A stretch of DNA of 64,000 bases from Hysterangium stoloniferum (Eukaryota > Basidiomycota > Agaricomycetes > Hysterangiales > Hysterangiaceae): the NCBI GenBank assembly GCA_015178975.1, contig WHVD01000039.1, positions 434,001 to 498,000 of the forward strand, in the 5' to 3' direction. The notes under the pieces are model-generated. The model was not told the origin of the DNA, did not search any database, and saw only the letters and a program-made list of their open reading frames with translations. Of the stretch, positions 1,113 to 59,760 are shown piece by piece (within the stretch, counting starts at the first letter, position 1; every line of letters begins with the position of its first letter). Both the position numbers and the translations under genes were made by a program.

Positions 1113-2128
1113 GCTATGTGTATGATATTGTATGGATCTATATATATGTATATATTTGGCCTTATGACAGGCTATTTAATATTCAGTGAAATATCATTGC
1201 AATGGTTTCCCTTCATTCAATTCTCTCTATATTTGCATTTAAGCTGGTGGAATTAATACTATGTATTGTATCTAAACATAACCTGAGTTGTGAGACCTAA
1301 TGCTACTTTTGAACAAGTGTGCATACAGTAAGTGGCACAATTTGTTCAAAGGGTGGTATTAAGTCTCACAGCTCAGGGTATATTCATACATAATATATAG
1401 TATTAGTCCCACCAGCCTATATGCAAATTGAGGAAGAATTGACTGAAGGGGAGGTATTGCAATGATATTTCACTGAATATTAAATAGCCTGTCATAAGGC
1501 CAAATACATACATACATATCTAGATCTATACAATATCATACACATAACATGTTGTGAGGTATCAGTATTATCTCATGAAATTTTCTTAATTTTCTTTAAA
1601 TTTATTAGTATTTTTTTGAATTTATTGTATCTTTATTTTATATTTTTATTGTGAAATCTAAGACTTAGTTCCTTTTAACTTCACATAATAATAGCATATA
1701 GCTCATATAATGCTATTATATCTTATGTAATTTATTATAATTTTTTAACTAATTTTTTATCTTTTATTTACTTAGTTATTGCTTCCTGGCACATTGCCTT
1801 GCTCCTATGTGCACATTTTTGGTGTCATGTGACCTGTTACTTAAGCCAACTTCAAAGGTTCAAGTCACTGGCATTTACTTCCATCCCAGATCTTGGCCTC
1901 TGAACCTTCAAGTTCAGGCTTAGATTGGAACCCTTGTCTCAGACATGGGAGTCATAGGATAGAAAATGTCAGGGCAATATATATAATATATATTTTTGCC
2001 ATTTATTTTTTGATTTTAGTTTATTTCATTATATCTACATGTAGCAGTGCAGGCATGGCACAAGAATGATTATGTAATCACACCACCACCACTGCCATTG
2101 AAAGCAGTCATGCCATCACAATGCACAG

Positions 2129-2310
2129 ATACACTGTGCAGTGACAATGTGCATGCACTGTGCAGCTGCAATATGCACACACTGCGCAGCTGCAATTTGT
2201 GCACACTACACAGTCACAATATGCATGCACTATGCAGTCGCAATGTGCACACACTGTGCAGACCCAAAGTGTGCACACTGCACAGTCACAATGTGTGTGC
2301 ACAGTGCAGC
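2129..2310. repeat. Degenerate tandem repeat, about 24 bp x 7
   Basis: About seven imperfect units alternate CACTGTGCAG and CAATGTGCACACA-like blocks. They generate long but meaningless Cys/His-rich frames on both strands. It lies in the material interrupting LTR X1. Confidence 0.7.
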
Positions 2311-2511
2311 AGCATTATGGCATCCTCACGTCAGTGCCAATGCAAGGGCTGCCACCACCACCTACACCCCAATGCCCATGGGGCCTCCTTGTGTACCGGC
2401 ACTGCAAATGCAGTCGGCACCTATGCAAGTGCTGGTGTGCTGCACAGGCTTACACAGTGCCGAGTGGGCTTACATAAGCACTGAGGCATGGCTATGTACT
2501 GTAGGGTGTAC

Positions 2512-3076
2512 TGTTACGACCCATTCCCGGATGTTTCAATATCCGACTTCCGATCTCTGACTTCCAACTTCTGACCTCCGACTACGGAACATCATAGTTA
2601 CCGTATCATCCGCATTCTTCCCTTGTTCCACATTTGGTAATTTGTCCGTTGACAAGTATTCACTCGTTTGTTTGTTGTATTCCCGTTTCGGAATATTGTC
2701 TCCCTAATATGTCTTATTGTATTTCCATTTTAAGAACACTTCCGTTTCCGTCTTATTATGGTCTTAGTTTGTAGTACAATAACGAGTAGACTTATATTAG
2801 TTTCCGCGAATTTGTACTTTACTTTAGATCTGATATCAACTTAGTTTCTTATTCCTCCTCCCGTCTTTCTGTACACTTGATATTTGGAACTCTTCGGAAC
2901 TCTGAATATCCATATCTTCCGTCGTAAGTTTTACTTCTGAAATTAAGGACATTGAGCATTTGCGTAGAGGTGCAGCACATAAGCTGAAGCCGACGTCCTG
3001 ACCCTATCCACGAGTTTCTGACTTCCCAGTGACTTTCCGATAGTTCCGGAATAAGTTCCCGACACGGCACTTAACA
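2512..3076 (-). mobile_element. Solo LTR, family L, copy 1
   Basis: Read on the minus strand it begins TGTTAAGTGC and ends GGTCGTAACA, matching the LTR at 16592-17094 along its length. It carries the shared hairpin block (CTTCAGCTTATGTGCTG in sense) at about 2969-2999. A target duplication is not evident here. This copy keeps more CpG sites than the 16.6-kb copy. Confidence 0.7.
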
Positions 3077-10953: not shown

Positions 10954-13900
10954 GTTGACTGAAGCGGAAGGCGGAAAGAAAAAGCTTGGTAAGCAGCAGT
11001 TTCCGCCTGTAACGGGAGCAGACGTGGTGGCGGACTTTGAATCGGGCGGATAACCGCCCTAGTCTTAGATGGTAAGGAGTAAAGAGAAGACACTGGAAGT
11101 TTTCGATCATTAAAGGGTTTCAGACTTATTAGGTGTTAGGGGATGTAGCTTACAATTGCCAGCATAAATAGGTGAACCCCCCACTAGTTAGAGGAGTCTT
11201 TTTTCGAATTGGAGCCTATTCCTACTCTGTGCGTTCCTCTTCATAAGAGCTCAACTGAAGGATTATGCTATCTACAAAGCCAAACCTTACCACTTTTTGA
11301 GTACTTTGTCTCCAACTTCATATTTTTTATATATTCTATACTAGCAGACTGATCACCCACTAGGTTTTAAACAATAAAAAACGCATGCATGCAATAAAAC
11401 TACACAAATATATTCTCGCCACAATGTCCGAGATTAATCAACCTGTCACTCATCAAGGCACTGTCCAAAGTGCAATTCCCGTGTGGAGCAAGAGAATCGC
11501 TTGACAACAGGTGGCTAGTGACGACTTGAATAGTCCCGCTACTGAAATGGTGAGTATTACCTCCTCACCTTTGAATGCCACAGGCCCCGAACCAATCTAC
11601 ACTGCACATGCAGAAAGAGAGGGGAGGATTGACTGTGATGCCGAGATGGAAGAGGTATCGCAAATTGCCTCTGATTCCTCGATAGCCACTTCCAGTGGAA
11701 ACAATCATGCTCCTGTTAGTGAAGTCTCCAATGAATCCGTTGAGAGTGGCAAAGACAACACAACATTCCCCTGTCCTAGTGAATATCTCAGTACTCAGGT
11801 CACCCTCCACAACTGGACTTGCCAGTACAGTTTGGTGTACCCTGAAGAGCTGGCAGCTCCTTGAAAGACCTTCTGGAGGAGGTTCCAAAAGGGGAAACCT
11901 CTCATTTGCCCAGAAGCACTCTTTTTTCCAGAGTGGTTTGAAGGAGAGAGCAGCAGCAATGAAGGGGAAGAAGGACTGTCCAAGGAAATGGCACTCGAGC
12001 ACCACCAGGGTGCTAAGTTTAAATGGTCGGATTGTTTGGAGTCTGATGAAGATCAGCTTGGGCCACTTTCAGAAACATGGACATTACCTTACAAAGTGAG
12101 AACTGGCAGGATTAGAGGGTTGGAAAGTTCTGGAATCTTTCCCATTCATCCATAAATCTTAGCACCATTGTCATCGAGGTGGAGGAAAATGCACCTATAA
12201 CAACCGAACCCACATCTTCTATGTTAGAGCCTGCAAATGCAGATGGATCTAAAAAGAAGTTGTCAACACAGTCCAACAAAGGGAAGGAAAGAATGGAAGG
12301 TGAACATCCCTTAAAGAACCTGCACAAAGGGAGTGAAATGCAGAATAGTCAGCTGCAAAAAGAGTGGAAGCCCAAGAAAGTTACTAGCTGTTATGTACGG
12401 GAGTCCTCACAAGTGCCAGAGGGCAGGTACTTTGCAGTAGGAGGGCAAGGGAAATTTGGACTGCCATCCCATTCAAGCAGCTCATCTTCTAGCAATGGAG
12501 ATGATGAGTCGTCAGATAGCATGTCTACTGAGTCAGACTTGTCAGCCAGCGAATGTAGCACTGACTCCCCTGAGTCTGGGTCAGGATTGGAGGGTGCTCC
12601 CCTAAGTCACTCTGAAACAGGAAGGAAGCATAGAAAGAAAAACTCACCTAACTTTCAGTGTATAAGACAGGACAAATGCAAACAGTCCATGGCTGAGGTG
12701 AAATGAACCAAAAAGCTGCTTGCTGGAGTTAAGACTAAGCAAACTGTGATCTACACAGGCACTGCTGAAATTGATGTTCTTGAAGCATTTATATATGCCT
12801 ATGATCTCTGGGCAGAGATCAATGAGTTAGATCACAAGTGGGTGGTGAAATTGATTATATACTTCGGCTCCTTCTATATGAAGCATGTAGCTTTGAGCAA
12901 ATGGAAGTGGACCTTGAAGTGGTGTATGATGGCCTATTCGATTATTGCTTTCCTGCCAATTATAAGGTGCATCTGTGAAAGCAACTTACATCCACCAGGC
13001 AGGGTAGAATGTGATTTTGTGATTTTGTGTGAGATATCGAAAATAATGTGAGGAGGTTTCCTGATATCCATGAGTGACAACTAAAGCAAATCGTGTGGGA
13101 TGGGGCATATGACTATATTAAAGAGAAATGGTTAGATAATGGACTTAATCCTGACAACACATTATGGAAGAAACTTATCAAAACTGCTACCCGGTTTGAG
13201 GCAGCACAAGAATTTCAGCTGGCAGAAAAAGGGAGAAGGGAAAATGCATCATCCAGATTGCCTCAGATATGGCCCCAAAAGAAAGACCTATAAGTCAGAC
13301 CAGGAAGAAGACTGATACCCAAGGGGTGAAAAATTACCAGTCCAAGCCATCTGGCCCGAATAGTACCACTCTCAACCATGTCCTAAATTAAGTTGGAGTG
13401 AGATGAATCAACTTTGAGCAGAGTGGCAATGTTTCTCCTGCAAGAATGAGGGTCATGAATCCCACAACTGTCCCTGTGGGAAGTTTGCTCCAGAATTGCA
13501 AGTTCTAGGACATGTGGTAAATGATAAAGGGATAAAAATGGACCCACATAAGGTGGACTCAGTCACAAACTGGAAAATTCTGACGAACAAGTTGCTGTTG
13601 GCTGGGTTTTTGGGGGCAGTAGGATATCTTGCAAACAACTGTGAAGGGATAAGGATCCCAATGGCCATCCTGGCCAATCAGACAGGGGTAAACAGGCCAT
13701 GGAGGTGGGGCACAACTGAGCAATGTGCCGTCGAAGACATTAAGTGGATTGTTCAGTCTCATCACAACAAGTATCGAATTGCATTAGATTACTCACCAGG
13801 CCATTCCACCATTAATTTGATAACAGATGCTTGCTTAACAGGAGCAAGTGGCATCCTCAGCCAAGGGGAAGACTTTCAAAAAGTGGCTGTGGTGTCCTTT

Positions 13901-15045
13901 TGGTCTGGGAAATTCAACTCGGCTCAACAGAACTATCCTGTGCATGAACAGGAGCTCCTAGCCATTGTGGAATCATTGAAACGGTTTCAGCCACAGCTGT
14001 TGGGGGTAAAATTTCGGATTTGTACTGACCATAAGGGCATAGAATATATATTTATGCAAAAAAGGTTGTCCCCAAGGCAGACACGGTGGCTAGACCTGCT
14101 AAATGAATTCAATTTTGAGATCCACTATATCCCTGGCCAGTTGAATACTTTTGCTGATGCACTCTCCCACATTTACAGTGATGAACCACTTGGAACTGTT
14201 CAGGCAGAAACAGAATACATAGGTGAGACCTTTGAGGTGGACAAGGAGGAGAGAGGAGTACCTTACAGCCCATGATGAGGCTGCCTCAACAGCGTGTCGA
14301 CACCACTGTATACAGGGTTAACAGCAGTGGTGTTAACAGAGACAACCAGACAGTCCAGCAGGCTGGCCACATGCCCACACCAATCATATGCAACACTAAT
14401 GGGATTGGAGACACGGGGCAAGAGATGTAAGGAACAATTGGGACAAGTGGTCGACAATGCAGATACAGAATGGGCTGCAGCATCTAGCTTGCAAGAAAGG
14501 CTTGGTATGTCAGGCAAGGATAGTCATCAGGACGACACTGGACATACCTCACAATTCACAATGGAGGGTGAGTTACCAGGGATTCAGACAAACTCAGGTT
14601 CCAAGTTTCCACTAGCTGGTATAATCTCAGAGGGTCACCCAGGTGTCCACATCCCAGATGCCCTTCGACAACAGTATGGATTGGACGATTTCTTTGCAAA
14701 GATATGGGCAGCACCTCTGGAGTATAAGGGGTTTATGTTACAAGACAGCCTCCTGTTTTTGAATTTAGAGAAGGTCAACTTACTGTGTATCCCAGACATT
14801 ATGGTAGGCAATTGACAGGTGCAGGAAATAATTATCTTGCATGCTCACTCAATCCTGGTGCACTTAGGGGCAAGGAAAACTGCCACATACCTATGATCTA
14901 ACATATAGTGGCCATCTTTAACCAAGAATGTTGAGTTGTTTTGCAGGTCTTGCAGTATGTGCACAATGTCAAAATCAGATACTCAGAAGCCTCAGGGACA
15001 TCTTTGCTCATTAGAGGTGCTGTCACAACCATGGGAGGCAATTGG

Positions 15046-17094: not shown

Positions 17095-17779
17095 TTACCA
17101 TACAAGGAGATTAAACCCATGCAGCCATTACAGGCATACATGGAGGCTTTGGGTGTTTCGAGTGTCCATTTGTTGCCGTGAGGCCAAGATCAATCTTTTA
17201 GGTCTAGTACTCAAGAGGGATCTGCTATTTATGTGGGATCAGTATGTCCAAGCACCGAGCAGGCCTTACTCACCATGGATGCACAGGATCCACCCACACA
17301 GGTGTCTATGGAAATTTTGACAGTGACAATGGCTGCTGTCCGCGACAGCACACTTAGAGGGGTACAGGTTGCATGGGATTTGCACATGGGGCACCTGGAG
17401 ACCATGCATCGTCAGTTCCTTGAAGCACAGCAACATACCAACAGGCCACAAACCATCCCTATGGTTAAGCCTTGCACCAGGGAATGGAGCCAGGCCTGAC
17501 AAGAGCAATGCCAAATGCCACTAGTGGAAAGGCTGTCTCCGTGCCCAGACAGCTTCCATAGTCCCCCAACAATGCACCAACAGCACACTTTGAGTGCTTC
17601 CCATCCCCAGACCAAGCCACATAAGAGTGCCCTAATGCAGTCAGCACCATACCTTTTGCAACGCCTTGACTCTGGGTCCCACCAGGGCATGCCTTGCCAT
17701 CTCCCTAAGTCGGCAGTGAAGGGCATAGAGGGATGCAGGCCAGAATTGGAAGCAGTCACCACACATGAAAATGCAGCTG

Positions 17780-18888
17780 TGTGAAGATCCATTCCCAGAA
17801 ACTCTTCAGAGTATTTCCTGGATATTATCTCTGGGTCTGAACCATCTTCCAGACCAGTATCAAGATCCGGAATCCACTGGAACCCGACCCTCATCCCTTC
17901 AAGACTCCTGGTTAGACTCCCGGTCAGACTCCTGGTCAGACTCCCGGTCAGACTCCCGGTCAGACTCCCGGTCAGACTCCCGGTCAGACTCCTGGTCAGA
18001 CTCCCGGTCAGACTCCCGGTCAGACTCCCGGTCAGACTCCCGGTCAGACTCCCGGTCAGACTCCCGGTCAGACTCCCAGTCAGACTCCCAGTCAGACTCC
18101 CAGTCAGACTCCCAGTCAGACTCCCAGTCAGACTCCCAGTCAGACTCCCAGTCAGACTCCCAGTCAGACTCCCAGTCAGACTTCCAGTCAGACTCCCATC
18201 TCTTATCTGACTTTCCACTCCAAGTCTCTGATCCGACTTTCTGACATCCACCTCAATATCTGATATGACATCCAGCTCAATATCCAACCTCTGACTTCCG
18301 ACTATGGAACATCATAGTTCCCACATCTTCCATAGTCTTTCCTTGTTCTGCATTTGGTAACTTGTCCGTTGACAAGTATTCACTTGTCTGTTTATTATAT
18401 TCCCATTTCGGAATAATGTATCCCTAATCCATCTTATTGTATTCCCATTTCGGAATACTTCCGTTTCCATCTTATTGTGATCTTAGTTTTTAGTACAATA
18501 GTGGTAACTTCTATATAGTCTTCCATAGTCATGTACTTACTCCTTAGTTTTAATCTCGAATTAGTTTTGTATCTCTTCTGTCTTTCTGTATGCTCAATCT
18601 TCAGAACTCTCTGGACTCTGGATATCCGGAACTCCCAGAACTTCCAAGTATCTGTAACATTCCGACATATACATATTCATCCTCTGAAATATGGACACCC
18701 AAGTGAGTGCATGAGGGTGCAACACATAAGCTGAAGCCAAGTCCATCTGTACTCTGGTAATATTCCGATACTCCCATTACTAATCCCTGGAAACTCCCAG
18801 ACTAATTCTCTGAAACTCCGAAGACATATTTCTGGAAAGTGTCTGGAATATCCACCAGAAGATCTGCCCTGAGATCTGGAACTTAACA
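17780..18888 (-). mobile_element. Solo LTR, family M, copy 1 (with 12-bp minisatellite)
   Basis: On the minus strand it reads TGTTAAGTTCC...GGATCTTCACA, 1109 bp, with target duplication AGCTG (17775-17779, 18889-18893). It contains about 24 copies of a 12-bp unit (GTCAGACTCCCG and variants) at 17905-18195, where the + copy at 18956 has far fewer. The long Ser-Asp/Thr-Gly frames here are products of the minisatellite. It forms a near-palindrome with copy 2. Confidence 0.88.
17905..18195. repeat. 12-bp minisatellite inside LTR M1
   Basis: About 24 head-to-tail units of CAGACTCCCGGT; the first half mostly ends CCCGGT and the second half CCCAGT, suggesting separate bursts of expansion. The sister array in LTR M2 (19585-19692) has about 9 units. 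Confidence 0.9.
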
Positions 18889-21420: not shown

Positions 21421-21806
21421 ACCTGTGTATCTTCTATTTGCAACCTAATTAGCTTGCCACATAGCCTCCTGAGCTCCAACCTAATTAGAATGCATAAGCT
21501 ATTTTACCACACCCTGCTAAATGGTCCTGCACTTCCTGGCAGCTAGACGAGTCACCCTTCACTTGCAATGCTCCACATGTGACAAGGCTCTCTTGTTCCA
21601 TGACCACCACCTGCCTCTGGGGTTGGGTCCCCCATGCTCGTGGTAAAAGGACAGACGGATGACAGTGAACAAGCTTGGGGAGCCTCTGAATTCACTGCTC
21701 TGTCAAAGTCAGCAGCCTTCAGCCGCACACCAGTGTCACCTGCAGACCATCACTGGCACCTCCTAAACCATGATCACAGCCTGGTAGTGGTCTTTTCTTC
21801 CTAGGA

Positions 21807-24800
21807 GGATATCTGAGAACTATTAAGTATACCAAATTCTAATATACTATAAAGGTCATTTAAATATCTGGGATGTGATTCAAACATAATTTGGTTTTTA
21901 AAACTTTCAAAAAGTTTTAAACTCTCTCATACATTACAAACTAAAGAATCTTTCCGGATACAAGTAGACAATAAAAAAGATTAGTAATTTGAAACACTAA
22001 TACTTTTAAAAAATAGATACCTTTAAATAGTCCATTCCATGCATATGTATATCATTGGCACCTCTAAATACATATGTATTACTTCGGAATAGATCTGTCA
22101 ATCTGAACAGATTTCTACTTGATCCAACATACCCAGAATATATAGGTAATTTCACTTCATAAAGAAGGCCATAGGATGAAAAATTTCCAATGACATCTCA
22201 TATATTTTACCAGGAAATAACTACAGTTTAGTTTTTAAAAAACAAATTAACAACAAAAGTATTACCAAGTATTTACATAAATTGGAAAACTATATACAAT
22301 AGGTTCTATTAATTGACTCTAAATTATTTAGGATGTAATATGAAGAATTGTTTCTTATGATTGGTGGTTAACAATATAATACTCTCAGAGGATATGTCAC
22401 TATTTAAAGATGGATTTTTGCAGCAATTTTGCTTTTATTAGTAAACATTTGATATTATAATGATTACAGACAACCTCCTTAATGAAGGTCTTGATTTTCA
22501 AATTGAAAAAAATGTAATGACAGTACTACTGTTACAGTCTCTCATGGCAAATGAGGCAATTAAAGAATGTATTGATATTATAAAAGAGTTCAGTATACCT
22601 GATGTTCTGGATACCAAATACCACAATCCTTTAGAAGCCATTAGACTATCTTTTGAACCTGCTAATACTTCACATATTTTCTGTGATAATATAATTCTAT
22701 GGTCTATTGGAGGAGACTTTAGAAATAATATATATGGAAAATGTAAAGTATATTTCTCACTTTCCTTTAAGATCAAGTTACTACACTCAGATACTCTCAA
22801 GAATAATGATATTGCACCTACAAATACTCCTTACTTTTCTTATAAAATTTCATTATCTGAGGTACCCATCAAAAATATAATAAAATTCCTAAGAGAAACC
22901 ATTTGTGATGAAATTATATTACATGATATAGATATCTCCCAAGATATATCCTATGTTACTACTAGAAAAGATGTTCTTAAGCATATATTAAATCTTGGAA
23001 TAAGAAAAGAAGATATTATAGATGATAGAAAAAAGGCTGGAGATAATTGTATATCCTTTTATAATGAAGATCACTCATGTAAGATCAAAGTATATAACAA
23101 ATTTGTACAAATGCTAGAAAGCTGTGATGTGATGACTACTTTAGGATCTAGAATCCACAATTTATATGTTGATCCTACTGAGTCAATGTCACAATCACTA
23201 GAAAGATTAAAGGATGTGGGAATGACAAGGATTGAAGTTAAGTTTTATGGTGACAAAGTATTTTCAAAATCATGGTATATAGACAACTTTATTAATATTA
23301 GAAATAATTTTAATGGATGTAGATTCTATAGAAGTTCCTTTGAAGAGCAGTGGAGAGCACTTGTAGATAGCATCTATTCCAAATCAACAATAATGGTTTA
23401 CTTAAAAGATAGAAAGTTTTTTGCATATTGCCATTGGTGGAATTCTTTAACAGGAAAGATCCAAGGAGACTTCCAAAAGAATGTAAATAAGGAAGATATA
23501 ATTCAATTAGTTTCTAACTATAGTTTTAATGGAAATACTACCAAACTTGTTAGGGTTGATGATGGGATAACCATGGTAGAGGAATACAAAAGGTCACAAA
23601 AGGGGATTACACTTATACCTGGTCCTAAAGGAGGACTCTATCCTAGGATTGAGAGTTCATTTTCACCAAGTGATATAGGACTTCTGGATTACAAAGGAGT
23701 AAAGCTTGGTTGGGTAGATACTCGTATCACTAAAGAATCAGCTCCCCTTGTCCCACTTCATAAAATTAGTAAGAATTTAGAAGAGGTGAGTGATTTGAGG
23801 GTATCTAGTTATAAGGCAGGATACTCAATTCTTAAAGAAACTTCAAAATATCAAGTTATATCAAAAGGTCAACTTTTATATAGGGGAAAGAATTGCACTG
23901 TTATAGAAGTCTTAGATAAAAATTCAGAAGTACTAAAGGTAAGGTGTGGAGAATCCTTACAAAATGCTGTAAAGGATATGAAAGATAAGACTTATATAAG
24001 AACTGGTAGAATAGTAAAAAGACATGGACAGAAAGATATACATATAAAATGAAAAAAGTTCAGTCTACTACTTCTGTACCAGAATGGATCTCCTTGAGAC
24101 CAATATCACTAACCTCAATGGACAACATATAAATAATATACATATGTGAGATAGTAGTCTTATCATTGTCACTAGATCTTAAAATGAAAAAGATCCTTGT
24201 AGCAGTTGTAGAACTTAATATCAAACTTGTCAAGAAAGGTTCTTCAAAATTTAATGAGGAATCTTGTGGTAGTGATGTTATATTCTTCCTTCTTAGGAGG
24301 GTGTTTATAATTACTATAATCTCAAATATTTACTAATAAAAGTCTTATTTTTACAAAACTCCATCTTTAAATAGTGATATCTATTCTGAAACAATTATAT
24401 CATCAAAAAATAACCATCAGAAATAGTTCTCCATATTACATCTTATACAACCCATAGTTATTTAACAAATTCCATTGTATATAATTTCCTTCCTTTTACA
24501 GATGCCTACTAATACTTTTATTAGTACTTTGTTTTTTAAAAGTTGAAATGTAGTTATTTCCATGTAAAATATGTAAAATATTATTGGAAATTTTTCATAT
24601 CACAGCAGTCTTTATTAAGTAAAACCCCCTATATATTCTGGGTATGTTGAATCAAGTAGAAATCTGTTCAGATTAACAGATCCATTCCGAAGTAATACAT
24701 ATGTATTTAGAGGTGCCAATGATATACATATGCATGGAATGGACTATCTAAAGGTATCTATTTTTTAAAAGTATTAGTATTTCAAATTACTAATCTTTTT

Positions 24801-24967
24801 TATTGTCTACTTGTATCCAGAAAGATTCTTTAGTTTGTAATGTATGAGAGAGTTTAAAACTTTTTGAAAGTTTTAAAAACCAAATTATGTTTGAATCACA
24901 TCCCAGATGTTTAAATGACCTTTAGAGTATATTAGAATTTGGTATACTTAATAGTTCTCAGATATCC
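21807..24967 (+). mobile_element. 3.2-kb element with very long TIRs and a single large ORF
   Basis: The ends are GGATATCTGAGAACTATTAA and its exact inverse. The inverted repeats are almost identical for about 345 bp (21807-22150, 24620-24967), then recognisable but diverging for another 300 bp, up to the start codon of the ORF. The mirrored right copy thus also carries the block around CACTATTTAAAGATGG that precedes the ORF. The interior is strongly AT-rich. No target duplication could be assigned. It sits within a LINE remnant in foldback S. It matches none of the common DNA transposon classes I can recognise; long-TIR plasmid-like elements or a Rep-encoding transposon are the nearest ideas. 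Confidence 0.75.
22460..24052 (+). CDS. Unrecognised 530-aa protein of the long-TIR element, possibly Rep-like
   Basis: One uninterrupted 530-codon frame from ATG at 22460, with no ATG upstream in frame, filling most of the space between the TIRs. No signal peptide or membrane segment is visible; the protein is Lys/Ile/Asp-rich, as the AT content predicts. Notable blocks: HDIDIS (residues about 155), CISFYNEDHS followed by KIKVYNKF (about 200-220), TRIEVKFY (about 258-266), FAYCHWWNS (about 322-330), and a C-terminal basic tail (TYIRTGRIVKRHGQKD). The order D-x-D, aromatic-x-K, then RxE in a beta strand recalls rolling-circle replication initiators of the Rep_trans kind, but no canonical HUH motif is present, so this is only a hypothesis. 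The intact frame in a repeat-rich region suggests recent activity. It could equally be a new transposase. Confidence 0.8.
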   Translation: MITDNLLNEGLDFQIEKNVMTVLLLQSLMANEAIKECIDIIKEFSIPDVLDTKYHNPLEAIRLSFEPANTSHIFCDNIILWSIGGDFRNNIYGKCKVYFSLSFKIKLLHSDTLKNNDIAPTNTPYFSYKISLSEVPIKNIIKFLRETICDEIILHDIDISQDISYVTTRKDVLKHILNLGIRKEDIIDDRKKAGDNCISFYNEDHSCKIKVYNKFVQMLESCDVMTTLGSRIHNLYVDPTESMSQSLERLKDVGMTRIEVKFYGDKVFSKSWYIDNFINIRNNFNGCRFYRSSFEEQWRALVDSIYSKSTIMVYLKDRKFFAYCHWWNSLTGKIQGDFQKNVNKEDIIQLVSNYSFNGNTTKLVRVDDGITMVEEYKRSQKGITLIPGPKGGLYPRIESSFSPSDIGLLDYKGVKLGWVDTRITKESAPLVPLHKISKNLEEVSDLRVSSYKAGYSILKETSKYQVISKGQLLYRGKNCTVIEVLDKNSEVLKVRCGESLQNAVKDMKDKTYIRTGRIVKRHGQKDIHIK

Positions 24968-25950
24968 CCCCTACCCACCCCCAACTCCAGCATTCACTTA
25001 TGCACTAGCAATGCAAGACTTCGGTGTGCCTGCAGCCATCATCGATGCCTGTTAGCAGGATCTCAGGTTCTTCCTGGGGCTTCAGCCCAAATGGCATGTG
25101 CTGTTCACTGGGCAAGTTCAGCACAATCACCTCTCTTTATTCATCCTGCCAACCACCACTCACTCCAACGCATCTGGCCTGCTTCCTCTTCATTCTCCTG
25201 TGGATACTATAGTAGCTATGCTCTATACGATGCTATGGAACTGCTATGTATCTTAGTTATGCGACGCAGTATATAAAAATAAATAAAAAAATGCTTCACA
25301 TGTGACCCCGAATCTCTAATTGTACACAGCTGTACATAGTTGACATAATGCATCTCTGCACTTTGCCTGTCCCCCCCACCTGCTGCCGTTTCATTCCTGG
25401 GCTTTGCTTTCCTATCATTTCATGGGCAAGAAGTGCAAATTAGGGCTTTCTTCAAAGGTCTCTGTATCTAGTATTGGGCCAAATGGATGTCTTGTAACTT
25501 CTAGGATTACTACTGCGCACATATGTCAGAATTCTGCCAATTTTATTCAAGAATGTCAGGAAAGGTTGAAATGTAAGTAAATTACACTTTATTACATATG
25601 ATAACATAATGACTTTATGATGCCAACATCAATTTGTTAAGAGATATTTCAGGGATTTTGAATGCGGAAGATTTGTATGCTGGTGTACCACACCCCTGCA
25701 GGTTTCCTGTCGATATTGAAATTTGATGCCCATGCCTTTTGACTGTTGCTCCCGAATTGTCACACACCGTCGCCCACATTTTGGATCATCGCTATCACCA
25801 TTTCCATGCTGATTTACTGGCTGTTGTTGCCACTGCATTTTTCCCGCTACATTTTGGACTGCTGCCACATCTTGCCACCAATGCCACTGTGTTTCACCAC
25901 TATTGCCCATTCCTCCAACATTTCCATGGTGTTTTTTTTCACTATCGCCA

Positions 25951-26185
25951 CATTTTCCACTCATCTTTGCATTTTCCACTCATCTTCACATTTTCCACTT
26001 ATCTTTGCATTTTCCACTTATCTTTGTATTTTCCACTCATCTTCATGTTTTCCACTCATCTTTGTGTTTTCCACTCATCTTTGCATTTTTTACTCATCTT
26101 TGTGTTTTCCACTCATCTTTGCATTTTCCACTCATCTTCGCGTTTTCCACTCATCTTCACATTTTCCACTCATCTTCACATTTCT
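25951..26185. repeat. 19-bp minisatellite
   Basis: About 12 units of CATTTTCCACTCATCTTTG with minor changes. Long Phe/His/Ser frames on the + strand are artefacts of the repeat. Confidence 0.9.
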
Positions 26186-26399
26186 CACTCAGCATTATAT
26201 TCTGGTTGCCATGCTGGAGCTAGAAAATCGAAGACTTCAAGACTTATTTGGTTGAGGGAGTAAATTTTTTTTTTCAATTGCTTTTAATTGAAAGGCTTCT
26301 ATATTTCAGGGAGTGCTTTGGGCACCTAGTTTTCCTCAAGGGAGTGTGTTAGAATATAGGGCTGTGTGAGCATGCACAAGGTGCTACACTGGCCCCATT

Positions 26400-28430: not shown

Positions 28431-29219
28431 TTTTTATTTATTTTTAATACATTTGTATACCACATTGCACAATGTAGATACATAGCAGTTGGGAGCAGGT
28501 ACCCTAATGGTAGGTGGATAGGTATGTAGGTAATAGGGCGAGTAGGTGTGGGTATGTGGGTGAGATGGCAGAGGAAAAAGAGAAAAGAAAAAGGGAAGAA
28601 CCAGGGGGGGGCTATGTCTTGCCAAAGGCATTAGAGGTGTCAATGAATTTTCCTAGAGTGGTGAGCCCTTTATGGGTTCTGAGGATGGCAGAGGGGGACA
28701 GGTCCTGAGAGGTGTCGATTAGGAGGTGGTGGTGTTCCTCATATAGAGGGCACTCAGTCAAGATGTGGAGGCAGGACTGGATGACCACTGTGCCACAGGG
28801 GCAGGATGAGGATAGGTCAGGGAGAAATTGGTGGTAGTACTCACCAAAGAAACCATGGCTGATGATGGCCTGGACAATGTGAGTGTGGATATGGTGGGGC
28901 CCTCCATATTCCTTGTGGAACTTTGACAGTTGCAAGGCAGGGGGTTTGTGGAGGGCCATGGCGGCAAGGTTGGTGTGGGGGAGGTGGAGCCAATCCTTGC
29001 ACCAGTGCTTCAGAGTGCAAGCTTTCACATTCTCCAGGGCCCCAGAGGTGGTGGAATGGAGGAGGGGGGGGTGGAAGTTGACTGCCTCTTTTGCAAGAGT
29101 GTCAGCCTCCTTGTTGCCATGGAAGCCATGGTGTCCAGGGATCCAGGAGAGGGAGATGCAGTGGGAAGGGTCTGATAGTAGTGAGTCAATGCATTTCCAA
29201 AATATAATGGAAGCACCCT
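28431..29219 (-). mobile_element. 5'-truncated LINE with RNase H domain
   Basis: The minus-strand frame 29298-28612 encodes the C-terminus of a LINE polymerase. The RNase H part has LSWIPGHHGFHGNKEADTLA (near 29130), followed about 110 residues later by a cysteine/histidine knuckle SCPCG...HILTECPLYEEHH (near 28770). It ends at 28612 and is followed by about 180 bp of 3' UTR and a TAAAAATAAATAAAAA tail. The 15-bp duplication TCACATGTGGAGCAT (28416-28430, 29220-29234) marks a genuine target-primed, 5'-truncated insertion. The RNase H type suggests the Tad/I-like branch. Confidence 0.82.
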
Positions 29220-29849
29220 TCACATGTGGAGCATTGCAAGTGAAGGGTAACTTGTCTAGCTGCCAGGAAGTGCAGAACCATCCAGCAGGGTGCGGCAAAA
29301 TAGCTTATGCATTCTAATTAGGTCGGAGCTCAGGGGGCTATGCAGCAAGCTAATTAGGTTGCAGATGGATACACAGGTGATATCAGCCCCGCACACCCCT
29401 TTGAAGTATTGTGAGCAAGAAGACTAGAAGCTTAGTCAGCTGGTTCATGGGATACAGTAAGCAAAAAAAGGGTTGCAATGTTCAGTAAATTTTAACTCGA
29501 ATGCTTATAACTCCAGAAATAAATTAGCTAAAATTAGGAAAAAATATAAGTTAAAAAGCCCTGTTTCTGAAATTTAACATGATAAGCAAGTTTGTTCAAA
29601 AGTATTCACTCATTGTTGAGATATTAAATATTTTGTACAGGAGTATCATTGCAACCCTTTTTTTGCTTTCATTCTGGAGATGACAGGACAGGTTGTACTG
29701 GTGTTTCTGATCCATTGTTAGGTTGTATTTGATTGTGTAATCATGTGACATGTTCAAAACATTCAACTCATAACAAACAGATCACAACAGTCTTGTTGAT
29801 TCCAACCTGCAGCCTGTTAGATAGTGTAATACTAGCACTACTTTCCCAG

Positions 29850-40500: not shown

Positions 40501-41585
40501 CTCGAACCATTCACAGAGAGTCTTGTTTCTATCCAAGTTTTGCGTGCTGTTTTTACTGTTCTTTTTTCGATTTTGCTCCTTAACTCTCTCATCGCCCTGT
40601 TGAATCTGAGGGTGGAGGCTGCGGATAATAGAGTATCATTATTTTTCTCTTCTTATACTCTAATTCTAACAGTCGGATCTAGAGTCGAACTATTTGGAGG
40701 CGGCAGATGGCGGCGATGATTGTTGAAATCGAAAGGGGAATCCTTACAGCTCGCGAACGGAAAAACCCACGATGGTTCCCAAGGTGGTTTACGTACAATA
40801 TCACGGAAGATGAGAAGAACCAGTGGCAGTATTACATCGATAAACAACCTCTTGGGCTCGGATATGGCCCTGACAGCAGTCCTGACCCGACTGTTACCTC
40901 ATCGCGGGTTCAAGAGGGGATCACACCTGAGAGCCCCTCCCCAGCCCCGCAGGGGTCGCCTACAAATGATACCCCGACAGTCCCCACAGCAGTCCGCTCT
41001 ACAACCGCAACATCCCCTAGCCCTACAACCACTAAGACTCCTGCCGAACGGCCCTCAGCATCACAACCTTCGACTAGACCCTCCAGCGCCAGAAAACCTA
41101 GTGTTTCTAACCCCTCGGCTACAAGTGCGCCAATCCCAACTTCTTCCACGCTAACTCCACCCAATGCGGCAACTCCAACGTCCACAATGGCTCGACCCAC
41201 TATGACCGATGCACTGCATACCCAGCCCTTGGATCCCCCAACCAAACTTCCAACGTCATCTGAAACATCTACAACCCCTCTACCAGCACCCGCATCGACA
41301 TCTACTTCTCAGCCTCCAGCAGGGTCAACAATGATAACCCAACCTTCAACTTCAACGGCAGCTACCTCCAGTTTTCAAGAGACGTTACCCCAGGTTGCAT
41401 CCCACAAGAGCGGACGAGGAGATGTAAAAGAGGAAATGATCAGTCAGAAGTGCCAGATATGCCCACTAGTTGAGACGAAGCTGTGCTCAGGCTGTCGAAG
41501 GGTTCGTTATTGTTCCGAAGAGCACCAGAAGCAAGATTGGGCTGTACATAGGAAAGTGTGTGAAAGGAAAGCCGGAGCGGAGTGA
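37581..41585 (+). CDS. TRP-like ion channel with C-terminal MYND zinc finger
   Basis: The start MASPVWPFAPADG at 37581 follows a likely 3' splice site. The N-terminal half resembles a beta-propeller with an Asp-box (SDQGRTW, about 38004-38030). The membrane part (about 39900-40620) has five to six hydrophobic helices, a pore-loop-like segment (SLGEMITFMTNDF) and a last helix LLNSLIALLNLRV, as in TRP/polycystin-type cation channels. A 59-bp intron (40329-40387) joins VG to FTFIPF in phase. A further intron near 40633-40682 leads to a Pro/Ser/Thr-rich linker and a MYND finger (CQIC...CSGC...YC...DW..H...C, 41451-41562) in which one Cys is His. The propeller coding changes frame near 37975 and near 38165 without plausible introns: either sequence errors or early decay. 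Whether channel and finger form one protein needs transcript proof. Confidence 0.72.
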
Positions 41586-57559: not shown

Positions 57560-59760
57560 TCAGAACCTGTAAAAGCAAAGAGAGACATAGGGCGACAGGG
57601 AAAAATGAAAATGAGTCCAAACGTAACAAGGGGTCCACGGAGTGCGGTCAGAGAGACGATAAGGGTCCAGGTTTGAGTGGGTAGCTGTATGAAAGTCAGT
57701 AACGATTTCCGTGGCATTACCGAGTTCTGTGGCCAAAATCCATGAGGTCTCTTCATCAGTGCCCTCGTAACCCGCCCACTTGACCAAGTAAAGCAGTTTA
57801 CAAGTGCGTCGACGCTTGTCTATTTTTGAATCTAAAATCTGTGAGATTTCAAACTCGGGTTCTCCGTCAATGACGACAGGAGGAGGCGGGGATTGCATGC
57901 GATCCGGGATAGTGTTAGCAGTACAAGGTTCTAGCATAGAAACATGAAATACCGGGTGTACCGTGCACATGCTATCCGGAAGCCGTAGAGTCCAAGAGAC
58001 TGAACCTACTTGTGTGATAATTTCAAATGGGCCTAGATATTTTTCAGCAAGCTTCTTTGATGGACGTGTAGTCCTGAAGAATTGAGCTTTGACATAAACA
58101 CGGTCGCCAATCTTGGAGTTGGGTGGTGGGATCCGGTGTTTGTCCGCTGAATGTTGGTATTGCTCTTGGGCGGACAATATTGCAGTCCGGAGTTCCTCGT
58201 GGAGCTCGTGGAGGTCCGTGGTGAATCTTGAGCGCAAACAGAGGCGAGATTTCGTTCTGGATGTACTGTAATATTTGGATTATATCCTTTATTTGCAAAG
58301 AACGGGGAAACACCAGTAGTGGCCGAGGGTGCATTGTTGTAAGCAAACTCTGCAAGTGGTAACAAAGTCTTCCAATTGTCCTGTTGGTAGTTGCAATATA
58401 CGCGGAGGTATTGTTCCAATGTCTGGTTGACGCGTTCAGTTTGTCCGTCACCTTCCGGATGATGTCCGGATGTGAAATGTAATGTCATGTCCAAGGATTT
58501 TCCGAGGGATCTAAAGAAGTGAGACACGAACTCTGATCCTCTATCGGAAGTCACGTGGGACGGAACTCCGTGCTTGGAAAATACGTGGATAATGAAAAGT
58601 TCCGCTAACTGCACAGACGTAATTGTATCATAAGTAGGGATGAATATACCTTGTTTTGAGAATCTGTCAACAACGACTAGAATAGCAGAAAAGCCTTCAG
58701 AATCTGGTAGGTGTTCAATGAAATCCATAGAGATAGAATTCCACGGGTGTTCCGGTACCGGGAGTTGTTTCAAAAGGCCGTATGGCTTGTGTCGCTGAGA
58801 TTTCGAGCGGGGACAAGTAGTGCAAGATTTACAATAGTGCTTAACGAATCCACAGAGTCCAGGCCAAGTATATTCTCTTCTTATTAATGATAGAGTTTTG
58901 TTGTACCTGAAATGGCCTGAGAGTGGATGATCATGTTTGTATTGAAGGACCCTGAGGTGGAGGCCGTCAGAGTCCGGTACATAGATTTGATTGTCAAGTC
59001 TAATTAATGAAACCATGTTGATCAAGAGACCACCAAGGTTGATCGGGGTCCACGGGATTGTCCAGATGAGCTTTGGTAACTGGGTCTAGCGGAATTGCCG
59101 ATAGAATATCTTGATGTAACTTCTCGATATCCATAATGATAATTCCACGGACAATGGGATTGATGAGGAAAGTTGCATGGACCGATGCGGTAAGCTGTTG
59201 ATTCGTGAAAATAGGTTTCAGGTTGTGCGGATTTACCGTTGCATAGTCGTTGCTCCCCTCTTTAGGATAGACGTCCCATCGTCTAGTTAAAGCGTCGGGT
59301 TTGCCACCGAGATGGCCGGGTCGAAAGCAGATAATCATGTTGAAGGCAGAGAGATATTCAGACCAGCGGGCCTGCTGACGGGTCAAACGTTTTGTGGTAG
59401 AAAAGTATTCCAGGTTTTCATGATCTGTTACAATGTCAATAGGAGCTCCTGAACCTTCCAAATAGTGTCGCCACGCTTTGAAAGCTGAAAAGATTGCCAG
59501 AAGTTCTTTATCATGAACGTCGTAGTTGAGCTCTGCTCTGGTAAAAGTCTGGGACAGAAAAGCCATGGGGTGAACTTCTCTGTCGGAGTCCTGGATAGAG
59601 AGAATGGCTCCAAGTGCATAGTCGGAAGCGTCCGTTTCAACAATGAGCGGGAAGTCCGGTTTCCAATGCGACAGAATAGGAGCTGTAGAAAAAGAATTTT
59701 TTAAAAGATTGAAAGCTTTTTGACACTTATCATTAAAGTTCCACGGAGTACCCTTACGTG
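57560..59760 (-). mobile_element. Pol region of element G (RT tail, RNase H, integrase, chromodomain)
   Basis: Minus-strand frames give an RT tail and RNase H (59740-59000: VETDASDYALGAILS, then YDVHDKELLAIFSAFKAWRH), integrase (59025-58240: HHx/CPRSK zinc part, DFIEHLPDSEGFSAILVVVD, TSDRGSEF, HPEGDGQTERVNQTLEQYLR) and an integrase C-terminus with a chromodomain (58237-57570: LLYLVKWAGYEGTDEETSW). This is a Ty3/gypsy chromovirus order. Chromodomains guide integration to marked chromatin. It is a fossil: gag, protease and most of RT are absent. Confidence 0.85.

Follow-up and report, generated by a model that had tools for sequence, protein, structure and literature searches.

The window analysed here, a stretch of 64,000 nucleotides of the basidiomycete Hysterangium stoloniferum (C323:434001-498000 of a 111-Mb assembly; C-numbers denote contigs of the same assembly), contains a mobile element at 21804-24970 that is a truncated, non-autonomous composite derivative of a transposon of about 6.45 kb. 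This parent encodes a DDE transposase and a second protein, the product of open reading frame (ORF) 1, that resembles rolling-circle initiators of the Rep_trans type. We consider it rather probable, with some reservation, that the parent represents a new lineage of composite-like DDE transposons carrying its own Rep_trans-like initiator, of which the window copy is a non-autonomous composite derivative; the composite-like plan itself is of an already known kind. The parts of the window element, in window coordinates and with the strand in brackets where there is one, are as follows.

21801..21803: CTA, 3 bp, target site duplication on the left (from the sequence and empty sites)
21804..22478 (+): left terminal unit U, 675 bp, GGAGGATATC...ACAACCTCC, of the subfamily of the C1 copy (94%)
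21897..21921: small hairpin within the left U, arms 11 bp, loop 3 nt, state CAA
22460..24052 (+): ORF1 as called, 530 aa, Rep_trans-like; the conserved protein probably runs from ATG 22544 (502 aa)
22685..22687 (+): codon of D76, candidate metal ligand of motif N' (alignment; predicted strand 74-83)
22931..22933 (+): codon of D158 in DID..D, candidate metal ligand of motif I (alignment; predicted strand 152-164)
23093..23095 (+): codon of Y212 in KVYNK, candidate catalytic tyrosine of motif III (alignment; predicted strand 207-213, helix 214-220)
23234..23236 (+): codon of E259 in TRIE, candidate metal ligand of motif IV (alignment; predicted strand 255-263)
24053..24295 (+): parent-derived sequence 3' of ORF1, cut at TTCTTA
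24296..24970 (-): solo U, 675 bp, inverted; matches the common U with about 98% identity
24971..24973: CTA, target site duplication on the right (from the sequence and empty sites)

The inverted arms (21804-22479 and 24295-24970) measure 676 nt each and are 86% complementary, with a single open frame of 530 aa between them. The outer ends are exact: GGAGGATATC begins at 21804 and GATATCCCCC finishes at 24970, 3 bp further out on each side than the bounds proposed in the initial annotation (21807-24967), and CTA is duplicated directly outside. When the two flanks are fused with one CTA, all 40 scored sites (213 candidates in the assembly) match through the junction with 90-95% identity. The composite is thus inserted in a high-copy host repeat (window 21500-21803 and 24971-25300) whose scored copies are empty, and this comparison of filled and empty sites, which had been proposed as a check, defines the CTA duplication. 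The earlier suggestion that the element is mobile and was recently active is right. The lowest-GC stretch of 2.5 kb in the window begins near 22000 (29.5%, against a mean of 42.8% for such stretches).

Viewed alone, and with its own CTA duplication, the window copy has the appearance of a stand-alone element with intrinsic long terminal inverted repeats (TIRs) and one gene, which is how it was first read. A search of the genome with the window element gave 87 matches, and the best 40 of 1093 candidates were scored; the two-armed form occurs in none of the other copies scored, so that a second copy with the same two TIR boundaries was not found among them. In seven copies (L002-L008) the match starts at the left end, extends to the point equivalent to 24295 and gives way there to parent sequence (ATATTGG...). 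The right arm of the window copy matches many 675-bp units at other places in the genome with about 98% identity, and this inverted U joins the 3' flank of ORF1 at TTCTTA/GGAGGG (24296). Because the seven other copies run past 24295, the long inverted repeat is derived and intrinsic long TIRs are rejected; as an ancestral form the one-gene element is refuted, and as a reading of the locus it is hardly tenable. The mirrored ends reported initially are real, but their right arm is an inserted U, and what had been taken for a mirrored replicon end is a solo U in backward orientation. Like ends of the left U and the inverted U delimit a segment that is flanked by a CTA duplication of its own. We envisage that a solo U would have inserted backwards into the ORF1 3' flank of a full element, and that the transposase would later have mobilised the part between the two like U ends, yielding the composite.

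Traced from the copies that extend past 24295, the parent (reference copy on C113, L022 474-6919) has the order U, ORF1 (502 aa), palindrome, minus-strand ORFs, DDE transposase, U, with both U in the same orientation. Instead of the TIR element with a single ORF assumed at first, it is an element with a DDE_Tnp_4 transposase and with direct terminal repeats of 675 bp; each U extends from GGAGGATATC to CCTCC and has its own short GGAGG/CCTCC inverted ends. Nine copies of the parent family were read, including the window composite and leaving uncounted C332, which duplicates part of C152. Both ends are kept in five of the nine, all with matching outer 3-bp duplications (C113 ATT, C152 AAT, C1 TAT, C71 AAT and C441 at 111 kb AAT); ORF1 is split by an insert in C152 and the transposase is broken in C1. 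As to the other four, the 3' U is truncated in C212, the copy on C367 stops at about 2.9 kb, the second copy on C441 adjoins one in inverted orientation, and the fourth is the window composite. At C441:4685-9656 (L008:1-1127, 1890-3016) two copies meet at their tails, with 1127 bp that are 100% identical between them in inverted orientation; this is a fresh palindrome of great length, unless it stems from the assembly.

Within an element the two U are closely similar (C113 99.1%, C152 100%, C1 98.5%, C71 99.85%, C441 100%). In four of five elements none of the U compared is closer than the partner, whereas in C113 a solo is slightly closer; the members of the C1 pair are at most 94% identical to any other U. 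In this respect the U repeats behave like long terminal repeats (LTRs), despite the lack of a reverse transcriptase in the five ORFs scanned. An LTR retrotransposon was rejected, as Pfam detected no reverse transcriptase, RNase H or integrase in these five internal ORFs; an Rfam scan of the parent gave no match. U also occurs alone: 18 apparent solos were obtained in the genome search, 16 were read with flanks, and 15 of these have a matching 3-bp duplication (TAA 5, TAT 2, ATA 2, and AAT, TAG, TGA, TGG, AGA and CAT 1 each), six solos being mutually identical at different sites. When the two U subfamilies are compared, identity is 96% in the outer half and 76% in the inner half (window 21804-22143 and 22144-22478), in line with the inward increase in divergence noted initially; this suggests that the outer half may hold binding or origin sites. 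The loop of the small U hairpin reads CAA in 21 of 32 cases and TTG in 11 (three with imperfect arms), and its state agrees between both U in all five pairs. The internal junctions, CCTCC/T..ATGAAGG at the 5' U and CCAGTA/GGAGG at the 3' U, recur across copies. The copies are mosaic: between C113 and five others, identity is 97.9-99.9% in the transposase, 72-98% in the minus-ORF block and 85-98% in U; the element modules have recombined.

An independent U with its own inverted ends, found alone and with duplications in 15 of 16 solos, could also flank internal sequence opportunistically, in the style of a bacterial composite transposon; there would then be no replicon stage, and the solos would be miniature inverted-repeat transposable elements (MITEs). 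The window copy indeed suggests that two U can mobilise intervening DNA. Such chance pairing is nevertheless clearly improbable in view of the recurrent internal junctions, the agreement of subfamily and small-hairpin state within the U pairs of all five both-end copies, and the C1 pair, with its 98.5% identity inside and at most 94% outside.

The transposase, a protein of 451 aa, matches DDE_Tnp_4 (E 4.9e-10) and Chromo (E 2.1e-6) in a Pfam scan; the initial statement that no known transposase is matched therefore holds for ORF1 and not for the parent. Its triad D158, D232 and E284 is invariant in 18 of 18 aligned sequences, and eight full-length stop-free copies were scored in the genome. 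Ends of the GG... type are typical of the PIF/Harbinger family, whose known target duplications are restricted to TWA. Since the element has such ends, 3-bp duplications (15 of 16 solo U and five of five both-end copies) and a DDE_Tnp_4 domain, its transposase is, by these sequence features, of the PIF/Harbinger type. Unlike the family, it carries a chromodomain, the element has long direct terminal repeats, no Myb-like partner was found, and the duplications of the 15 solos are AT-rich, yet not confined to TWA. Relatives of the transposase numbered 316, and the named ones among the 120 listed belong to Mortierellomycotina and Mucorales. Sister transposases with 42-50% identity are present on C356, C141, C268, C2 and C20, none of which has a match to ORF1; ORF1 may therefore be an accessory of this transposase lineage. 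Elsewhere a linkage is weakly hinted at, with four pairs of ORF1 and transposase relatives on equal-sized contigs, compared with a null mean of 0.9 (P 0.024; 78 vs 120 rows). The parent also carries two minus-strand ORFs, of 117 and 204 aa. The longer one (L022:4163-4777 (-), C113) contains PDF...ENK, which by eye is PD-(D/E)XK-like; it has five relatives, the two named ones being from Ramaria rubella and H. stoloniferum, and one of two relatives scanned hits a TnsA-like N model below the cut-off (E 0.0043). Minus-ORF and transposase relatives have one contig size in common (2983). If a TnsA-like nuclease does adjoin the DDE enzyme, the arrangement would be reminiscent of Tn7.

The first 28 residues of ORF1 are absent from the homologues read, so that translation likely starts at ATG 22544. 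The predicted model shows the crescent-shaped TBP-like catalytic fold of Rep_trans, and the structures 4cwc, 4cwe and 4cij are top or near-top in structure searches (Foldseek, VIA), with modest scores and with TBP also matched; when the domain is isolated, VIA ranks RepSTK1 first, not TBP. VIA further returns many ribosomal S6 and ACT-like matches, most of which cover about half of the fold. The structural check proposed in the initial annotation thus points to the Rep_trans fold, while the profile-profile check was not significant, as discussed below. In an alignment of 51 sequences the residues D158, D162, Y212 and R257 are invariant, D76 (E in one), K210 and E259 are found in 50, and K214 and Q217 in 49; Y212 is also present in 76 of 76 members of a larger set. 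Y212 and K214 form the YxK of Rep_trans motif III, with Q217 on the helix that follows the tyrosine strand, and the candidate metal ligands D76, D158 and E259 lie on three separate predicted strands. Carr et al. (PMC4797284) describe RepSTK1 with metal ligands D9, D116 and E196, with R177, Y179 and K181 at the active site and with Q184 on a helix. The order in ORF1 corresponds to this: D76, D158, K210-Y212-K214, Q217, and R257-E259 on a later strand. Fifteen bacterial Rep_trans proteins mostly have RIDxAxD, YDK or YNK, and RxE where ORF1 has DIDISQD, YNK and RIE; the bacterial frames came from PF02486 matches at 15 of 16 loci and were selected for [RK]xDxxxD and YxK, so that the presence of the first two motifs partly reflects this selection. 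The DID, KVYNK and RIE blocks, which had been compared with rolling-circle initiators from the outset, thus occupy the positions of motifs I, III and IV. An HUH fold was rejected, as no HxH occurs among the invariant or nearly invariant columns of the 51 sequences, in accordance with the initial remark that an HUH motif is missing. The ratio of non-synonymous to synonymous substitution (dN/dS), calculated for the seven of eight loci with an open frame (L004 has none), is 0.20-0.35 in 17 of 21 copy pairs and 0.59-1.41 in four pairs with dS <0.02; by this measure ORF1 evolves under constraint.

Between ORF1 and the minus-strand ORFs the parent has a palindrome with arms of about 230-300 bp and a loop of about 120 nt. 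The arms are identical in C113 (289/289), C1 (301/301), C441 (246/246) and C152 (227/227), nearly so in C71 (288/289), and 91.5% identical in C212. Between elements they differ by 2-18% over the aligned parts; in the C441 arms about 95 of 246 bases cannot be aligned with the others. The loop was found at 15 places; relative to the strand of ORF1 or the transposase on the same contig, it has one orientation in seven (C113, C152, C537, C177, C464, C1, C71) and is inverted in five (C212, C323:285 kb, C27, C173, C410), a count that omits C332 as a duplicate of C152, C525 (strand not assigned) and C146 (79%, weak, first orientation). The palindrome at C323:285 kb is 2.7 kb away from the nearest element gene. 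An independent palindromic MITE was rejected, as most palindrome matches are near ORF1, minus-ORF or transposase matches on the same contig (C553, C525 and C290:236 kb are omitted from this check). Loop inversions, which the small U hairpin shows as well, can be passive at short hairpins, but the two loop orientations, flip and flop, taken with the identical arms, fit passage through hairpin or cruciform processing.

Several results weigh against the interpretation of ORF1 as an initiator. PF02486 has no match to the window ORF1 at E<=10 and none in the genome, the Bacillus subtilis control being found; it is also not among the best 25 of 39 families for the 51 sequences, and the best E of the others is at least 0.1. 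The hhalign comparison of ORF1 with Rep_trans is not significant (probability 2.4%, E 0.02; controls: reversed E 0.071, 29 shuffled E 0.13-0.91). There was no significant match in Pfam (best E 0.55), PHROGs or PDB sequences (best E 0.39), a search of PDB sequences with the ORF1 profile gave no matches, and nothing exceeded the cut-off in NCBIfam. Because PF02486 and hhalign fail to detect the relation, ORF1 is called Rep_trans-like on the basis of predicted fold and aligned residues, and is not a member of PF02486. The same failure of profile methods would suit an ORF1 that is an inert, TBP-like DNA-binding partner of the transposase, in an element that moves by plain cut-and-paste and owes its identical repeats to chromosomal gene conversion or recombination. 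TBP is indeed among the structural matches, the mosaicism between copies demonstrates frequent recombination, and PIF/Harbinger elements usually have a second, Myb-like DNA-binding protein. We regard such an inert partner as unlikely, because a DNA-binding saddle would not need so conserved a set of residues: the tyrosine and the D, D, E, K and R residues, in Rep_trans order, are 96-100% conserved in the 51 sequences. RepSTK1 rather than TBP is, moreover, first for the isolated domain.

It can also be envisaged that ORF1 and the palindrome stem from a virus or plasmid, i.e. a free linear or circular replicon with flip/flop hairpins that was hit by a U transposon, giving a fusion that is now spreading. 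This concerns the origin of the element and is compatible with the reading that we favour. The 83 relatives of ORF1 are mostly on short contigs, sister transposases lack ORF1 on their contigs, the palindromes are perfect with flip/flop loops, and the GC content of the parent is 30.5%, against 43.4% in the remaining window, which may be a trace of origin in an AT-rich fungus. However, repeats also yield short contigs, a pattern scan for ORF1 in IMG/VR and GTDB contigs gave no relative, and there is the hint of linkage to the transposase elsewhere (four pairs vs 0.9, P 0.024); capture seems a doubtful, though not far-fetched, explanation.

The favoured reading, a DDE transposon with its own initiator, starts from what the copies display directly, i.e. 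mobile units with their ends and duplications, direct repeats, gene content, constraint, flip/flop states and mosaicism; beyond these we infer integration of end pairs by the DDE enzyme, nicking by ORF1 and a replicon stage. The transposase would cut at the GGAGG ends and integrate any compatible pair of U ends: the outer ends of U-internal-U would give the full element, both ends of one U a solo, and two like ends of U copies inverted to each other a composite. ORF1 would nick a hairpin or cruciform origin, either the palindrome or the small U hairpin, by means of Y212 and a metal bound by D/D/E, and would drive the replication of a U-internal form that is excised or circular. Tandem products would offer the transposase U-internal-U or a single U, the two U copies being derived from one, which would explain the identical U pairs and the solos, while hairpin processing or recombination would explain the identical palindrome arms and the flip/flop loops. 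More tentatively, and with rather less than even confidence, we suggest that the element is a transposon-replicon hybrid, holding the first eukaryotic branch of Rep_trans-type initiators inside a DDE transposon and replicating, as an excised circle or as a hairpin form, from a flip/flop palindromic origin of its own. If so, tandems together with DDE integration would give LTR-like identical ends without reverse transcription.

Other features of the window include a frame of 291 aa that contains a long tandem repeat of GSLT (17412-18287 (-)), tandem TTCCACTCATCTTTG-like repeats that are open in overlapping frames (25739-26263), and retrotransposon remains at 13496-14275, 58033-59025 and 28612-29298 (reverse transcriptase RNase H; integrase H2C2 and rve; RNase H domain). 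A 292-aa frame at 40707-41585 with a terminal MYND finger (E 1.8e-10) is, from its sequence, probably an exon of a host gene.

Helitrons and Replitrons are eukaryotic rolling-circle transposons with an HUH tyrosine nickase and no DDE transposase; the present element, which would likewise rely on a tyrosine nickase, lacks HUH and has a DDE transposase and a 3-bp duplication. The closest plan is that of KolobokP, described as composite-like DNA transposons of animals, with direct repeats of about 450 or about 660 bp, a Kolobok transposase and a His-Me nuclease, whose molecular pathway is stated to be unknown (PMC9587614). The two share an internal region between long direct repeats (675 bp here) that carry short inverted ends of their own; in both, such repeats also occur alone with duplications, and a DDD/E transposase is accompanied by a further gene. 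The element of H. stoloniferum differs in its PIF/Harbinger-type DDE_Tnp_4 transposase with a chromodomain, its Rep_trans-like initiator and flip/flop palindrome, and its basidiomycete host; no His-Me domain was detected by Pfam in the five element ORFs scanned, and, unlike in the KolobokP account, no (U-internal)n multimers occur in the nine copies read. With Rep_trans (PF02486: the pT181 family, RepSTK1, inoviral Reps, relaxases of integrative and conjugative elements) ORF1 shares the predicted fold without HUH, the tyrosine strand followed by a helix with Q/E, and the order of the D-D-E and basic residues; it differs in being eukaryotic, in its position inside a DDE transposon, in its length of 502-530 aa with extra C-terminal parts, and in the lack of a Pfam or significant profile-profile match. 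By description, it can be set beside the Rep-Arvir initiators of archaeal viruses and plasmids, which have a hairpin origin, the catalytic motif KHYYM and a structure-only link to Rep_trans, with TBP-fold proteins and A0A345MNV4 among the matches (PMC13107129).

Initiators of the Rep_trans type have been described as bacterial and were extended to archaea in 2026 (PMC13107129), and a limited literature search gave no report of eukaryotic Rep_trans-like proteins. A fungal branch, if true, would put these initiators in all three domains and would mean that eukaryotic mobile DNA has a second origin from tyrosine nickases, in addition to HUH. The pairing of a DDE enzyme with a plasmid-type initiator could explain how two identical ends are kept up, and an element that has an initiator of its own, open copies, and U, loop and palindrome states that can be told apart makes the restoration of identical direct ends directly testable.

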